Source: Anaerolineae bacterium
Lineage (GTDB): Bacteria > Chloroflexota > Anaerolineae > Aggregatilineales > Ch27
Assembly (NCBI GenBank): GCA_013178165.1
Contig: JABLXG010000001.1
Span: forward strand, 391,605-455,604
DNA: 64,000 nt
Direction: 5' to 3'
Below are positions 5,031-14,380 of this stretch, one piece after another (position 1 is the first letter of the stretch; every line of letters begins with the position of its first letter). Below the pieces are notes generated by a model, which ran no database searches, was not told where the DNA came from, and saw only the letters and a program-made list of their open reading frames with translations. The translations under genes were made by a program, and so were the position numbers.

Positions 5031-7148
5031 TTAGGTCTGTCCCTTAGCAAGTAAGCCGCGGATCAAGCCGAGCAGAGTGTCACTACTTACAACCGATTTC
5101 GACAGGATCGCTTCTGCGGAAGCCCTCAACTGATAATGTTCTTCCGGATTTAATTCTTTTGAGGAATAAATAATTACCGGGATGTTCTGTGTCTTCTGAT
5201 CAGACTTCAAAGCATCCAGGACTTCAAAGCCACTCATGCCCGGCATCACCAGGTCAAGGAAGATGACTTCCGGGACGAGTTCACGTGCCTGCTGCAAACC
5301 CTCAGCGCCATCGGCTGCTTCGACGATGGTGTAGTATTTGCCCACCGATTTCTTGAAGGTGTATCGCGCCACTTCGTCATTATCGATAAGCAGGATCGTC
5401 TGCTTGACTCCGATCTGGCGGAGCTTCTTTAGCAGCCACTCCTTCGATAAGGGCTTAATAGCATATTCTTGCGCTCCCAACAAAGCCGCGGCTTTTTTGC
5501 CTCCTTCAAACACAGTTGCCACAACAACAGGGATATCCCAGGTGGTTTCGTTACTCTTTAGTTCAGCCAGAAATTCCAACCCACTCTCTTCCGGCATCAG
5601 GAGGTCCAGGATAATTGCGACTGGTTGTATTGAGGCCAATATCTGCCATGCCTGTTTGAACGACTGTACGGCAACAACCTCGAACTCTGTGTTATCGAAA
5701 ATGCGTTTATAATATTCAATATCTTCGGCTTCATCCTCAATCACCAGCAAAGGAAGACGCATGTTCTTAGGCTGGGACAAGTCAGCATCATTCAAGGCTG
5801 GTGGGAGAACATTCGGATAGACCAGCGGAATAGTTAAGGTGAAGGTCGATCCCTTCTTGACCACAGACTGCACGGACAGGCTACCGCCCAATAATTCGGC
5901 CAGCTGTTTTGATATGGAAAGGCCAAGCCCTGTACCTGTAGTCTGTTTGTGGAGGTGTGTATGTAGTTGGGTGTACTCTTGAAACAGCAATTCCTGATCT
6001 TCAGCGGAAATACCGATTCCCGTATCGGTGACCGAAAAGATAGCCTGTGTGCCGGTTTGATCCAGTTTGACTGAGACTCGTACCTCCCCAGATTCAGTAA
6101 ATTTGTGGGCATTGGAAATGAGGTTCCTGAGAATCTGAGCAACCTTTTTTTGATCAGTGAAGAATATGGGGAAATCCACTGGCTCGTCAAACAGTAGCGC
6201 TACGTCCGGGTTGGTGAACAAAGGCTTGAATATGCCACGCAAACCACCAATAAGCTGGCTTAATTCAAACACTGTGGGATTGATCTCAAGCTTTCCCTTC
6301 TCAAGCTTGGCCAGGTCCAGGATGTTCGCGACCATGTCCAGCAATTCTTGCGCAGAACTCTGGATCAGTCTGACTTGCTGCTCCTGCTCACTGGTCAGGT
6401 CACCATCGAGTCTATCGAGAAGGATACGCGCTAACGCCACGATTGAGCTCAGGGGGGTGCGGATTTCGTGGCTCATGATTGAAAGATAGCGGGATTTTTG
6501 CGCGTTTGCAGCGCGTAACTGTTGGGCCTGTTCCTCAAGCTCGGCATACAATGCCATCACGCCTTGATTGGTTTCGCTTAACTCTTGATTAAGCTGGCTC
6601 AGCTGGATCTGGCGCTGGTGCAGGTCCTCAAGTATATTAGTGAGTTCCTCATTTTGTTGCCTGATCTCTTCTAGCGCGGTCTGCGGCGTACGCTGAGCCA
6701 GATCGGCGACAAGACTCGCTATTTGAGGCGGGGTAACAAAAGGCCCCGTCAAAGTTTTTTCCAGAGATAGAACTGTGCCTTCGCGGGGGGGGAACTCAAC
6801 AGTCAGCCGATCCACTAGGCGCCGCGCACTGGTAACGCCGGCGCTCACTTCGGGGGCTAAAGGTTCCGCAAAAACGGTCTGCAGGTTGGAATGACCATTG
6901 CTCTTGTCGTTGATAGTAATGAGAAACGTTTGCGAAGAACCCTGGTTTTTTAACAGAAACGCTACTTCGCCTCTCTTTAGGACCCCAAATATGACACGCA
7001 CGATTTCCGATACCGCAGTCGCAATACGCACCTGATCTTGCGTGTCAAAACCTAACCGGCCCGCAATAGTTCTGGCTAGCGAACGCGCTTTGACAATATC
7101 TTCCTCAAAACGCAAACTCATGACAAAAATCGGTATCTGGGTTTTCAT
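5031..7148 (-). CDS. Hybrid histidine kinase with degenerate RsbT-like N-domain and two C-terminal receivers
   Basis: A 705-residue protein. Residues 1-135 align by eye with RsbT-type GHKL ATPases: the stretch from VKARSLARTIAGRLGF to AVSEIV parallels the neighbouring RsbT. The N-box Asn is replaced by Val52, the ATP-lid Gly by Ser83, and the glycine-rich second box is absent, so nucleotide binding is doubtful. A coiled coil (150-215) leads into HisKA (SIMSHEIRTPLSS, His227) and an intact HATPase (NLISNAHKFTES, DTGIGI, GTGLGLSI). Two receivers follow, with acceptors in IILDLLMPEESG and IFLDLVMPGMSG. The gene lies 16 bases after the RsbT-PP2C gene and 13 bases before the second kinase. My inference is that the degenerate RsbT domain lets this kinase sense the stressosome state. 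Confidence 0.88.
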   Translation of the reverse strand: MKTQIPIFVMSLRFEEDIVKARSLARTIAGRLGFDTQDQVRIATAVSEIVRVIFGVLKRGEVAFLLKNQGSSQTFLITINDKSNGHSNLQTVFAEPLAPEVSAGVTSARRLVDRLTVEFPPREGTVLSLEKTLTGPFVTPPQIASLVADLAQRTPQTALEEIRQQNEELTNILEDLHQRQIQLSQLNQELSETNQGVMALYAELEEQAQQLRAANAQKSRYLSIMSHEIRTPLSSIVALARILLDRLDGDLTSEQEQQVRLIQSSAQELLDMVANILDLAKLEKGKLEINPTVFELSQLIGGLRGIFKPLFTNPDVALLFDEPVDFPIFFTDQKKVAQILRNLISNAHKFTESGEVRVSVKLDQTGTQAIFSVTDTGIGISAEDQELLFQEYTQLHTHLHKQTTGTGLGLSISKQLAELLGGSLSVQSVVKKGSTFTLTIPLVYPNVLPPALNDADLSQPKNMRLPLLVIEDEAEDIEYYKRIFDNTEFEVVAVQSFKQAWQILASIQPVAIILDLLMPEESGLEFLAELKSNETTWDIPVVVATVFEGGKKAAALLGAQEYAIKPLSKEWLLKKLRQIGVKQTILLIDNDEVARYTFKKSVGKYYTIVEAADGAEGLQQARELVPEVIFLDLVMPGMSGFEVLDALKSDQKTQNIPVIIYSSKELNPEEHYQLRASAEAILSKSVVSSDTLLGLIRGLLAKGQT

Positions 7149-7164
7149 CGTTGACTCTCACCAA

Positions 7165-8232
7165 TTACCTGGCGGGCAGGCGGCCAACCCATATGGTTAA
7201 GTCGTCAGTACCGCGTGCGTAATCGTAATAGATCCGTCCAGCAATCAACGATGGATGTCTATGGAACAACCCCGGGTAACGCCCTATGTTCCAGTGCCTG
7301 GTTATTCCATCAGAATGCAACACCAACAGCTCGCCTGGCGAATAAGGGTAAGTGAATTCTATCGCTTTTCGAATCGTGTGACCAACAGTGCCGGATAGCG
7401 AAACCAGCCCGCGCTGGCCCTCTGCAAAAACAATAGCCCCTGAAATATTGCCCACCCCCACATAATGGATGACTTGCCTGGCATAATCAATTTCTGCCAC
7501 CGCCAGGGAGACCCCGCGGGTATGAGTCAGGCCTGTATGAAGCGTCTCAACCAACCTTGCGAGAGTCAGGTCTGGATTTGCAAGAAAGATTCGGATGGTC
7601 TCAGTAGCCGCTGTTTCTGCCAGGGGGCCGTGCCCCAGGCCGTCGACGACCAGCACCCGACTTAAGTCGAGTGTGTGCCAGGTTGCCCAACCATCACCAT
7701 TGTGTGTTTCGGTCGACAGTGGCAGACACACCGCCCCAAATTCCAATGGGGTTAACACCGAATACTTGCTTGGTGGTTCCCCCCATAGCCGGGCGAGTAT
7801 AGCGGTGCCAAGTTGCGGCATCGAGTAAATATCAAACTGGGTAGCAAGCCGGGATACTGCACCCAAGCCGGTCCCTGCGCTGCCGGACGTAGAATAGCCA
7901 TCCTCCAGGCACATGGAGACGTTACTCATGCCCGGACCTTTATCTAACGAACGAATTTCGAGGCCGTTTCTCCCGCCTTGTTTCAAGGCTTTCAACAACA
8001 ACACGCCGCCTGGGCTGTATTTGGCTAGATTGGAAGCAAGTTCCGTAACAGCGATAGCCGTCTTGCCCGCCAAGACTTCATCAAACCCAAGCGAGGCTGC
8101 AAGTTTTACCGACCGACGACGCGCATCGCCGATCTGCGCATGGTCGGTAATTGGTATAACAATATCCTGTGATAAACTGCTGGTTGTATATAGCACTTTT
8201 AATCTACCGAATGGTTGCCCTGTCACACCCAC
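7165..8232 (-). CDS. RsbT-like ATPase fused to SpoIIE/RsbX-type PP2C phosphatase
   Basis: A 355-residue two-domain protein. Residues 20-150 form an RsbT-like GHKL ATPase with an intact N box (AVTELASNLAKYS), ATP-lid DKGPGM and GTGLGAV. Residues 165-350 are a PP2C/SpoIIE domain of the RsbX type, with the metal-binding motifs VVDGLGHGP and LVLHSDGI and the terminal GTDDLTIWV. In Bacillus, RsbX dephosphorylates RsbR and RsbS and resets the stressosome, so this protein probably does the same, guided by its RsbT-like domain. Its start overlaps the end of rsbT by 10 bases, implying translational coupling. RsbT-PP2C fusions are known in many phyla. The exact phosphoprotein target is inferred from context. 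Confidence 0.88.
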   Translation of the reverse strand: MGVTGQPFGRLKVLYTTSSLSQDIVIPITDHAQIGDARRRSVKLAASLGFDEVLAGKTAIAVTELASNLAKYSPGGVLLLKALKQGGRNGLEIRSLDKGPGMSNVSMCLEDGYSTSGSAGTGLGAVSRLATQFDIYSMPQLGTAILARLWGEPPSKYSVLTPLEFGAVCLPLSTETHNGDGWATWHTLDLSRVLVVDGLGHGPLAETAATETIRIFLANPDLTLARLVETLHTGLTHTRGVSLAVAEIDYARQVIHYVGVGNISGAIVFAEGQRGLVSLSGTVGHTIRKAIEFTYPYSPGELLVLHSDGITRHWNIGRYPGLFHRHPSLIAGRIYYDYARGTDDLTIWVGRLPAR

Positions 8233-8627
8233 ATAGTAATCGTCACACGTGTACCCTGGCCTACCACAGACACGATCTCAAACTCGTGGACCAGCCTCTT
8301 GGCGCCACCCAGGCCCAGACCCAACCCGTTTCCAGTAGAGTAACCATCCTGCATAGCCAGATCGATGTTTGGGATTCCTGGACCTTGATCTTCAAATACC
8401 AACCGAATACCCCGGTTATTGGGATTAGAGACGAGCTCAATTTGCATCGTCCCGCCGCCCCCATGAACGTAAGTATTACGCGCCAGTTCGCTGACCGCCG
8501 TCACGAGTTTTGTCTGGTTAGTCAGACCAATACCAAGCTCCTGTGCGTAGGTACGCACTATACGCCGGGCATGCACGATATCCTCTTCCGATGCAATTGG
8601 GACCCTTTTATTCTCTAGCGGAGTCAT
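8223..8627 (-). CDS. rsbT: RsbT, stressosome serine/threonine kinase
   Basis: A 134-residue protein of the normal RsbT length. It is a stand-alone GHKL ATPase with the N box AVSELARNTYVHG (Glu47, Asn51), the lid EDQGPGI (Asp80) and the glycine-rich GNGLGLGLGGAKRL. In known stressosomes RsbT phosphorylates RsbS and RsbR after stress, leaves the complex and activates a downstream partner. The gene overlaps rsbS by 20 bases and the next gene by 10, a tight rsbS-rsbT-PP2C cluster. No rsbU gene of the classical type follows. Its usual partner may be replaced by the two hybrid kinases downstream, which is an inference. Confidence 0.93.
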   Translation of the reverse strand: MTPLENKRVPIASEEDIVHARRIVRTYAQELGIGLTNQTKLVTAVSELARNTYVHGGGGTMQIELVSNPNNRGIRLVFEDQGPGIPNIDLAMQDGYSTGNGLGLGLGGAKRLVHEFEIVSVVGQGTRVTITMWV

Positions 8628-9003
8628 CAGAAGATTCTCCTGCTAGAGATCCTCTTATCTTTCTGAGAAGTTGTTCCCCTTTTTCAGCATTTAGCGCAGT
8701 ATGGACTCCATGGAACGACAGCCCCAGCTCCACCAACGTGATGGCCACGGCGGGTTGCATTCCAACCAGCACCGTCTCCGCATCCATTATCCGTGCCATT
8801 TCCGCACTATTGGCGATCACACGAGCCGTGAAGGAATCCACCAAGTCTAGCGCCGAAATGTCGATCAACACCCCGTGAGCGCCAGTCTCCGCGATAAGAC
8901 GCATGAGATCATCCTGAAGGGTCATTACCAGACGATCATGCAATTCAAACTGAATCGTGACAAGAAGTAAGTCTCCCATCTTCAGAATTGGGATGCGATC
9001 CAT
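8608..9003 (-). CDS. rsbS: RsbS, stressosome STAS scaffold protein
   Basis: A 131-residue single-domain STAS protein. It matches Bacillus RsbS along its length: IPILKMGDLLLVTIQFEL, then GVLIDISALDLVDSF, then GMQPAVAITLVELGLSF. Ser57 in 'VDSF' corresponds to the RsbT target Ser59 of B. subtilis RsbS. The ATG at 9003 is preceded by GGAG eight bases upstream and starts directly at the RsbS-like N-terminus, so the longer upstream frame to 9039 is not used. RsbS forms the core of the stressosome with RsbR and holds RsbT in unstressed cells. The gene lies 116 bases downstream of rsbR. Confidence 0.93.
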   Translation of the reverse strand: MDRIPILKMGDLLLVTIQFELHDRLVMTLQDDLMRLIAETGAHGVLIDISALDLVDSFTARVIANSAEMARIMDAETVLVGMQPAVAITLVELGLSFHGVHTALNAEKGEQLLRKIRGSLAGESSDDSARE

Positions 9004-9119
9004 CCAATACTCTCCGTGCGCGAATGGCCCTCTGGCCATTCAACGCGATTTGAACCACCGGTTGAACAGCAGAAACTCAGGTTGCGAATAAAATTTGCTC
9101 CTAAGCATCCAAACTTGGA

Positions 9120-9974
9120 TCATTGGATGGTGAGACCTAGTTCCTTGAGGGCCAGAGCCAAGGCTCCAGCCAGGGTGGCCTTGGTGCGTATCCCTGTAAA
9201 CTCAGCTCCAAGTTGGACAATGGTTTGGGCAATCTGAGGCCGAACCCCACTGATGATACAATCGGCTCCCATCAGGCGCGCGGCTGCCACCGTTTTGAGC
9301 AAATGCTGGGCTACCAGCGTGTCAACCGTCGGAACCCCAGTGATATCAATGATGGCGATATCAGAACTGGTATTGACGATCTCCTGAAGAAGGCTTTCCA
9401 TAACTATCTGGGTACGTGCGCTGTCAAGCGTCCCCACCAGCGGAACAGCCAGAATACCCTTCCAGACTTGAATAACCGGGGTAGAGAGTTCGATCAGATC
9501 CTCGTGCTGGTGAGCGATAATCTGTTCCCGACTCTCGATGAAAATTTCAGTTGTGTACAACCCCAGTTTGTCTAGCAGGGCAGTAACTGTCCGGATTTCG
9601 TCCAGCAAGTTCTGCAAATTCTCTCCGGCCATTTCCAGGCTCATGAGTGAGAACAACGGTTGTTTCAACGACAGGATAAAGGTGGCGGTTTCAGAAGGCG
9701 AAAAGCCCAACGAGGCCCTGCTGCTCGAAATCCTACCCAACAGGTCGCGGACGTTTTTCCATGCAGGTGCGGTAATGTCAGTGATATTCCCTCCCTGGAC
9801 CGCCTGTTGTATGGCATCCAGAAATTCGCGTGACTGGGCGCGCAATTCGGCGTCACTGAGCAGCTCCGGGCGAAGTATCCCGGCGGCACGTTGTTCCTTT
9901 AGCCAATCTTCCAAAAGATCGGCTTCATGATTTCTAAGTATTCCAGCAAGTCGAGTTCCTTTAGCTGCACTCAT
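9120..9974 (-). CDS. rsbR: RsbR-type stressosome sensor (N-terminal RsbR domain plus STAS)
   Basis: A 284-residue protein. The C-terminal STAS domain (about 165-284) carries IAIIDITGVPTVDT and GVRPQIAQTIV. Thr216/Thr219 and Thr251 fall where the RsbT-phosphorylated threonines of B. subtilis RsbR lie. The N-terminal about 155 residues resemble the non-haem globin-like RsbR sensor domain in length and helical character, with no PAS or haem motif evident. The ATG at 9974 is chosen over the upstream in-frame start at 9998 because a full Shine-Dalgarno GAGGAGGT precedes it by 4 bases. It is the first gene of the operon. Only one RsbR paralogue is present here; the stimulus is unknown. Confidence 0.92.
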   Translation of the reverse strand: MSAAKGTRLAGILRNHEADLLEDWLKEQRAAGILRPELLSDAELRAQSREFLDAIQQAVQGGNITDITAPAWKNVRDLLGRISSSRASLGFSPSETATFILSLKQPLFSLMSLEMAGENLQNLLDEIRTVTALLDKLGLYTTEIFIESREQIIAHQHEDLIELSTPVIQVWKGILAVPLVGTLDSARTQIVMESLLQEIVNTSSDIAIIDITGVPTVDTLVAQHLLKTVAAARLMGADCIISGVRPQIAQTIVQLGAEFTGIRTKATLAGALALALKELGLTIQ

Positions 9975-9996
9975 TACAACCTCCTCTAGAGCGTGC

Positions 9997-10002
9997 ATTA
10001 TA
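9997..10002 (-). promoter_or_regulatory. Probable -10 box of the stressosome operon
   Basis: On the minus strand a perfect TATAAT stands 22 bases before the rsbR ATG. ATTGAA lies 16 bases further upstream as a possible -35. The transcript leader would be only about 15 bases, containing just the strong ribosome-binding site. Confidence 0.5.
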
Positions 10003-10849: not shown

Positions 10850-10886
10850 TCAACATCTTTTACAGTGCTCAACAAAGGAGCCGATC

Positions 10887-11360
10887 ATGCCTCGAGTGGC
10901 GATCGACACCCCCGCCCCGGATTTCACGCTGACAGACTACCGGGGCCAGACTGTCACGCTGTCCACATTCCGCGGGCGCAAGCATGTCTTCCTGGTCTTC
11001 AACCGTGGCTTTACATGACCATTCTGCCGCGCGCACATGGCGCAGTTGCGCCAAGACTATGACCAGTTTGTGGCCCGCGACGCTGAGATCTTCGTGATCG
11101 GGCCAGAAGACCGCGACGCCTTCGCCCGCTACTTTGCCGATAACCAGTTGCCGTTTATCGGCCTGCCCGATCCCGATCACCGGGTACTCAAGCTGTACGG
11201 CCAGGAGGTCAACCTGTTCAAGCTGGGCCGCATGCCCGCCCAGGTGCTGGTAGACCGCCAGGGTATCGCCCGCTATGTCCACTACGGGCACGGCATGCAG
11301 GACATCCCTTCCAATGCCGAGTTGCTGGCCCTGCTTGCCGAACTGGCGGAAAAGGTGTAA
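10887..11360 (+). CDS. Peroxiredoxin-like protein with in-frame UGA (probable selenocysteine at residue 44)
   Basis: The ATG at 10887 has a strong Shine-Dalgarno (AAAGGAG, 6-base spacing). Residues 1-43 read as an AhpC/TSA N-terminus (PAPDFTLTDYRGQTVTL, then VFLVFNRGFT). A TGA follows at 11016-11018, and the same frame continues PFCRAHMAQLRQDYDQF to the TAA at 11360, a complete thioredoxin-fold C-terminal part. The UGA sits exactly where the peroxidatic Cys of the CxxC-type motif belongs, giving U-P-F-C. With selenocysteine inserted the product is 157 residues, a normal length. The downstream half has no ribosome-binding site of its own. A hairpin suited to a bacterial SECIS lies at 11038-11053. 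It is followed after 4 bases by an oxidoreductase gene. The role would be thiol-dependent peroxide reduction. The alternative is a nonsense mutation or sequencing error in a Cys codon. Confidence 0.8.
11016..11053 (+). promoter_or_regulatory. UGA codon plus SECIS-like hairpin
   Basis: TGGCGC (11038-11043) and GCGCCA (11048-11053) form a perfect 6-bp stem closed by the tetraloop AGTT. The apical loop begins 25 bases after the UGA (11016-11018) and has G as its second base. Bacterial SECIS elements lie directly 3' of the UGA inside the coding sequence and carry a G near the start of the apical loop. This geometry is compatible with that rule. Confidence 0.6.
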
Positions 11361-13051: not shown

Positions 13052-13705
13052 TCAGGCGGTGAACAGGATCGCTGCCAGTTCAGCGTAGCTGCTGATCGTG
13101 TAGTCGGGCACGACCGCCGGCGGCAACGGGCCGCCGGGGAATTCCGGCGAAGCGAAGTAGCACGTCTTTATCCCGGCGCGTTGCCCGGCCTCTATGTCCA
13201 GGTCGCGGTCGCCGATGGCCAGCGCCTGCTCCGGCGAGATGCCGTTGCGGGTCAGCAGGGTCAAAAAGCCGCCGGGATCGGGTTTGCGCGCGCCGCCCTC
13301 GTCGACCGTCAGCGTGTCGGCGAACAGAGCGGTCATCCCGTGATATGTCAGGAAGCGATCCAGCGACGCGCGTTCGCGGTGGGTGAAGATCAGATTGCAT
13401 CCGCCCGCTGCGATCATCCGGTGGCACAGGTCGATCACGCCGGGGAAAGGCGGGCATAGCTCCGGCGGGACGCCCTCCGGACGCAGGCGGGCATATGTCG
13501 CCTGGATGACTGCCGGGTCCAGGCTATGCTCTGCCGCCAGGGTCTCCAGGCAATCATTGAAGGTAACAGCCAGCAGACGGGCTACGCGCTGTGCATCAAC
13601 GGTCACACCATGCTCGGCAAAGGCGGCCACAACCCCGGCCCGGATGGCGGGGTAGGTATCAAACAGGGTGCCGTCCATATCCCAGATCAGGGCGGAAAAG
13701 CGCAT
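13052..13705 (-). CDS. HAD-superfamily hydrolase, phosphoglycolate phosphatase-like
   Basis: 217 residues with all four HAD motifs: I WDMDGTLFDT (nucleophile Asp9, acid/base Asp11), II IFTHRE, III GGARKPDPGGF (Lys) and IV AIGDRDLDIEAG. A helical cap domain lies between motifs I and II. This is the Gph/PGMB type of small-molecule phosphatase; the substrate is unknown. It lies 42 bases downstream of a clear paralogue (13748-14380) that has lost these motifs, so the two form a tandem active/inactive pair on one transcript. Confidence 0.88.
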   Translation of the reverse strand: MRFSALIWDMDGTLFDTYPAIRAGVVAAFAEHGVTVDAQRVARLLAVTFNDCLETLAAEHSLDPAVIQATYARLRPEGVPPELCPPFPGVIDLCHRMIAAGGCNLIFTHRERASLDRFLTYHGMTALFADTLTVDEGGARKPDPGGFLTLLTRNGISPEQALAIGDRDLDIEAGQRAGIKTCYFASPEFPGGPLPPAVVPDYTISSYAELAAILFTA

Positions 13706-13747: not shown

Positions 13748-14380
13748 CTATGATACCACGTCACCCGGCCCGAAGAGGAAGGTTTCCAGCGCGGTATGGG
13801 TGGGAAACACAGAGAAATCGCCCGCCGCTTCCGGCGTCCTGACCAGGCAAGCCGCCAGTCCCAGCGCACGGGCCAGCTCGGCGTCGCGCCGCCGCCCGCT
13901 GATGACCAGCGCCGTGCCCGGTGGTAGGCTGCAGGCCGCCACCAATAGAGCCAGGGCGGGCTGGTCCGCCCCGCCACTGTCGTCGGCCAGCCAGCCGGTG
14001 AACAGATCAGTCAGGCCATAGGCCGCCAGGGAACGTTCCATGTCGCGGGTATGGCGGAAGCTGAAGGCATAGTTGCGCCCGCCTGCTTCGACCGCGCGGC
14101 GGCAGAGGTCCACCGCGCCGGGGAACGGCGGCTGATCGCGCAACAGGATCGCGCGGTAGCGGGCTTCCCAGCCACCCTGTAGCGCCTGCCGCGGGACGCC
14201 AAAGCGAGCCGCCGCCGCGCTGATCAGGGCGCTGTCCACCGTTGCCAGCAGGTCGTCCAGCTCACCCCCGGTGATGGTCGCGCCGCAATCAGCCAGCGCT
14301 GCACCCAGCGCCCGCCGGATCGCGCCGGTCGTGTTGAACAGGGCGCCGTCCAGCTGCCACAGCAGGTACGGGTAGCGCAT
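13748..14380 (-). CDS. HAD-like pseudoenzyme, tandem paralogue without catalytic residues
   Basis: 210 residues, collinear with the following HAD gene (shared MRxxxLLW start, PPFPGVIDLC/PPFPGAVDLC and the MERSLAAYGLTDLF segment). Every catalytic motif is altered: motif I is WQLDGALFNT (nucleophile replaced by Gln9, Thr by Ala13), motif II is AFSFRHT, motif III is GGADQPALA (no Lys) and motif IV is VISGRRRDAEL (no DD). The frame is intact and the rest is well kept, so it looks like a maintained non-catalytic partner, not a decaying gene. It may dimerise with or regulate the active paralogue. AGGTG precedes the ATG. Confidence 0.82.
   Translation of the reverse strand: MRYPYLLWQLDGALFNTTGAIRRALGAALADCGATITGGELDDLLATVDSALISAAAARFGVPRQALQGGWEARYRAILLRDQPPFPGAVDLCRRAVEAGGRNYAFSFRHTRDMERSLAAYGLTDLFTGWLADDSGGADQPALALLVAACSLPPGTALVISGRRRDAELARALGLAACLVRTPEAAGDFSVFPTHTALETFLFGPGDVVS

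Follow-up and report, generated by a model that had tools for sequence, protein, structure and literature searches.

A predicted peroxiredoxin-like UxxC selenoprotein gene with an in-frame UGA in an Anaerolineae genome

The gene, its reading frame and its neighbours

The window, the whole 64,000-nucleotide stretch of Anaerolineae DNA analysed here, contains a small peroxiredoxin-like gene whose frame passes through an in-frame TGA at codon 44, followed at a short distance by a hairpin (Table 1). The start of the gene is as originally predicted: an ATG behind a Shine-Dalgarno sequence opens a frame that runs into the TGA and then onward, and the same-genus orthologue L020 also carries AAAGGAGCCGATC-ATG. 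The residues around codon 44 are FNRGFT-U-PFCR, and the TGA occupies the first position of a C-x-x-C-type motif, U44-P-F-C47, as had been noticed. Beyond the TGA, the other two frames contain two and three stops, and the gene frame is open. The divergence at the three codon positions is 0.31/0.22/0.49 after the TGA versus 0.34/0.28/0.56 before it, and this likeness on either side indicates that the frame is kept past the TGA.

Table 1. Coordinates of the features of the gene within the window
Feature	Position	Strand	Remarks
Shine-Dalgarno AAAGGAG	10874..10880	+	Read in the sequence; 6-nt spacer to ATG 10887
Prx-like UxxC selenoprotein gene (predicted)	10887..11360	+	157 residues, Sec at 44; TAA stop 11358-11360
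In-frame TGA, predicted Sec	11016..11018	+	Codon/residue 44, first of UxxC; conserved in homologues
TGC, Cys47	11025..11027	+	Second active residue of UxxC; pairs with the AhpE peroxidatic Cys in the alignment
SECIS hairpin TGGCGC-AGTT-GCGCCA (predicted)	11038..11053	+	Within the coding region; stems 11038-11043 and 11048-11053; fits the bSECIS model

Homologues were sought with conserved peptides of the Sec protein, allowing any residue at codon 44, and with profiles, and Cys forms were detectable by these queries. Among 61 relatives, the orthologue is found in 11 genomes including the present one (55-99% identity), all 11 with TGA at codon 44. The scan of named genomes yielded 80 loci, to which a phylum search added more; when the scans are pooled, the alignment at residue 44 gives UGA in 114 distinct sequences and Cys (TGC) in one, although the 114 share ancestry and so do not represent as many independent events. 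The sole Cys form (L158, on G292:C99) lacks the SECIS hairpin and branches, on a long branch, where the Sec clade is not resolved; it likely arose by a Sec-to-Cys change.

The coupling to a deazaflavin-type oxidoreductase in the original prediction does not hold up: the adjoining gene is seen only in the same genus (L019/L020/L054), and an operon link was dropped. A link with the upstream PadR regulator was likewise rejected, that gene being kept in the same family only (L020, L023/L106). The remaining neighbours are variable: an alpha/beta hydrolase lies upstream in 11-12 of 65 loci, overlapping the gene start in Thermomicrobium roseum, and DUF4345 lies downstream in 12 of 52. Thus the alpha/beta hydrolase and DUF4345 recur, the deazaflavin oxidoreductase does not, and the neighbours give no clear hint of a substrate.

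Two other regions of the window, both on the minus strand, were observed from their translations. ATPase-domain, STAS-like, phosphatase-like and hybrid histidine kinase ORFs at 5031-9998 look like a stress-signalling cluster of the RsbT/RsbS type. Adjacent ORFs at 13052-13705 and 13748-14380 are both HAD-type phosphatase-like and probably represent a tandem duplication.

Predicted fold and active site

Read with Sec at codon 44, the product contains an AhpC-TSA domain (PF00578; 2.9e-23, 82.6 bits against a cut-off of 26), and its AlphaFold2 model has a pLDDT of 92.8. The best fold matches of the model are Bcp1 (Z 20.7), AhpE (Z 20.1) and ResA (Z 18.6); the modelled fold is that of a Bcp/AhpE-type peroxiredoxin, with ResA close behind. 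In both homologue sets, A1 and A2, the U, P and C of U44-P-F-C47 are invariant; residue 43 is T, V, M, Q, A and others among the homologues. The segment GRMP (residues 114-117) is also invariant; its Pro is situated six residues before D123 and, by this spacing, presumably resembles the cis-Pro of TlpA/ResA.

This active site differs from those of its structural relatives. AhpE, Bcp1 and PrxQ share the fold (Z 19-21, rmsd 1.9-2.5 Å over 140-149 residues) and utilize a TxxC motif, whereas the window protein has none. In pairwise alignments with AhpE and Bcp1, U44 pairs with the TxxC Thr, and the peroxidatic Cys is matched by Cys47; hence, by the TxxC/TxxU pattern of peroxiredoxins, Sec44 sits where the Thr would, and the earlier assignment of the TGA to the peroxidatic position is wrong by homology. 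Some PrxQ paralogues are shifted by one residue in tblastn, so this register draws its support from the solved structures that score better, not from all. ResA/TlpA, in turn, have the same fold, and their two-residue xxC active site likewise begins with the reactive residue; compared with them, the window protein replaces the Cys with Sec and has no N-terminal hydrophobic segment visible by eye in its sequence.

Selenocysteine is commonly the attacking residue, and, by analogy with CxxC proteins, Sec44 may well be so here. The motif and the fold suggest a chemistry in which Sec44 is likely the nucleophile of U-P-F-C and Cys47 its partner: the Sec44 selenolate would attack a peroxide or a disulfide, either of which could be the substrate, a selenenylsulfide Sec44-Cys47 would then form, and a thioredoxin-like or small-thiol reductant would reset the site. 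It is rather unlikely that the protein is instead a true peroxidase with a peroxidatic Cys47 and a resolving Sec44, an arrangement compatible with Sec at position 44. In favor of such a peroxidase, Cys47 aligns to AhpE's peroxidatic Cys and the best fold matches are peroxiredoxins, but the Sec-first UxxC recalls the CxxC of ResA, itself a good fold match, and Sec as a rule attacks. With Sec44 as the preferred nucleophile, the sequence still appears compatible with peroxidase and with thiol:disulfide oxidoreductase activity alike.

The SECIS hairpin, the selenocysteine machinery and the reading of UGA

The perfect 6-bp hairpin with G as its second loop base, previously placed within the range of bacterial SECIS elements, is present and begins 19 nt past the TGA. 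The bSECIS model describes a loop of 3-9 nt, a stem of 4-16 bp, a G among the first two loop bases, a UGA-to-loop distance of 16-37 nt and an MFE <= -7.5 (PMC13188914); here, the loop has 4 nt (AGUU), the stem 6 bp, the distance is 25 nt and the 20-nt stretch with the hairpin, folded alone, reaches -10.8 kcal/mol (z -3.95). In a context of 60 nt, the hairpin is unremarkable (z -0.74), and its score is reached by 2444 of 20000 (12%) synonymous recodings of the same peptide, so the hairpin of the single gene is suggestive at most. Over the 114 distinct homologues, evaluated by a simple scoring scheme, the mean hairpin score is 7.47 versus 4.73 +/- 0.17 in synonymous recodings; it is this conservation, not the single hairpin, that exceeds chance.

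The hairpin occurs in two registers. In 96 of the 114 sequences, the best hairpin has an AGTT loop starting at nucleotide 29, counted from the T of TGA; in a few others, a competing hairpin outscores it, yet AGTT is there too, flanked by the usual stem for the most part. In a sister subfamily (LAFLRGF-U-P.CRAQLAR; 11 sequences), the stem is of GCGCGC type and the AGTT loop starts at nucleotide 20; its members, including L139, L141, L144 and L148, carry the SECIS hairpin 9 nt nearer the UGA. The loop is thus common to both subfamilies despite the different position and stem, and both registers (UGA-to-loop distance 25 or 16 nt; second loop base G, then U) lie inside the bSECIS model. Among the 11 orthologues, the codons of A52, Q53 and L54 in the hairpin are fixed, L54 being always TTG although most other invariant Leu sites mainly use CTG, and synonymous diversity averages 0.10 in the hairpin versus 0.48 at other invariant residues. 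The main stem and its peptide are both nearly invariant, so stem covariation is uninformative.

A search of the genome for selA, selB, selC and selD, the check proposed at the outset, recovers all four: a tRNA-Sec with anticodon UCA, SelB (353 bits), SelA (545 bits) and SelD (372 bits). An in-frame TGA also occurs in the SelD gene (L051, G000:C32:61473-62408), within SCAG-U-ASK at the known Sec site, and a hairpin AGCTCG-GCCCGAA-CGAGCT follows it; with this TGA and its own hairpin, SelD is a second predicted selenoprotein of the genome. Across the 61 relatives, selA is present in all 11 TGA carriers and absent from about a third of the genomes (hypergeometric P 0.014 for TGA carriage with selA, kinship ignored). 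In 14 further genomes, 13 TGA carriers and the Cys carrier G292, SelB always exceeds its cut-off, and SelA does so in the 13. The selA of G292 lies in two separate frames (G292:C6:30365-31518), possibly through a frameshift or an assembly error.

Sec at this codon is strongly supported by the complete Sec machinery together with a TGA and a SECIS that are both conserved, and the product is almost certainly a small peroxiredoxin-like redox protein with selenocysteine at UGA 11016-11018. From these conserved parts, SelB and Sec-tRNA-Sec, recruited by the downstream AGUU hairpin, would decode the UGA. That the TGA is a true stop, leaving either a pseudogene or two products, a peptide of 43 residues and a protein of 107 residues starting at ATG 11037, is very improbable: the ORF from this internal ATG exists and RefSeq gives the T. 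roseum homologue as a 42-residue head only, but 114 distinct homologues share the TGA and keep the protein sequence across it, where a decaying gene would vary, and the hairpin codons are frozen. A genome-wide reassignment of TGA, or its reading by another near-cognate tRNA, is extremely improbable; nothing in its favor was found, TGA terminates ordinary genes here (window 11955, 12523), three orthologues themselves end in TGA, and tRNA-Sec is present. The window assembly is fragmented (52 contigs), but a Cys codon misread during sequencing or assembly is virtually excluded and already refuted by the same TGA in an independent same-genus genome (L020/L054) and in the complete isolate record of T. 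roseum; the codon is TGA, not TGC or TGT.

Known families, distribution and meaning

Very probably, the gene encodes a small Sec-containing oxidoreductase of peroxiredoxin fold, its UGA decoded via SelB and the AGUU hairpin, and belongs to the known Prx-like UxxC selenoproteins. The statement that Sec occurs in such proteins is borne out by the literature, in which Prx-like UxxC/UxxU thiol:disulfide oxidoreductase selenoproteins (PF00578) have long been known (PMC1794560, PMC2398784, PMC9312934, PMC13188914), with Geobacter and Syntrophus among the listed carriers of the family (PMC1794560, PMC9312934, PMC13188914). Compared by description, they share with the window protein the AhpC-TSA domain, the UxxC motif with Sec first and a bacterial SECIS. 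Furthermore, Smithella-labelled MAGs (organism by MAG label only) hold homologues of the window gene at 61-63% identity, which suggests the same family as the one listed for Geobacter and Syntrophus. No paper on a Chloroflexota case of the gene was found in the open-access papers searched. The best NCBIfam match of the window protein is NF040769 (SelL-related redox protein), which matches 39 of 39 A2 members; the window protein scores 82.1 bits, below the cut-off of 120, and aligns over residues 9-105 only. The window gene is taken as a new member, possibly constituting its own subfamily, of the Prx-like UxxC selenoproteins.

At 1e-35, matches occur in 120 of the 396 genomes of the class, and the original view that the case is notable for such a genome is not sustained. 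All class matches spanning codon 44 have the TGA except that of G292, and three further matches without TGA are fragments starting after this codon. Separately, four distant redoxin loci in relatives (G048:C13:85191, G034:C105:1015, G020:C16:48402 and G040:C8:52197; ~30% identity) each contain one in-frame TGA and are possible further selenoproteins.

In T. roseum, the homologue (L164:2501-2962; NC_011961.1, 545266 onward) appears in RefSeq as a CDS (WP_012643006.1, 'hypothetical protein') that ends at the UGA; past it, the frame continues unannotated as U-PYCRRHLAQLRQ, with a perfect hairpin CTGGCGC-AGTT-GCGCCAG. As RefSeq lists the pre-UGA piece only, the gene has likely been missed elsewhere too. 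We give about even chances to a distinct, almost wholly Sec-dependent Prx-like subfamily running through the Chloroflexota, with its own AGUU SECIS, shifted by 9 nt between subfamilies, and mostly hidden from annotation as gene callers stop at the UGA.

A real selenoprotein gene of a known kind is well supported by these sequences. The Chloroflexota thereby gain a well supported selenoprotein family that is widespread and misread by gene finders, and the cultured carriers Longilinea arvoryzae and T. roseum make it testable there. Meanwhile, the near absence of Cys forms (114 Sec to 1 Cys), in a fold rich in Cys forms, raises the question of which chemistry needs selenium.
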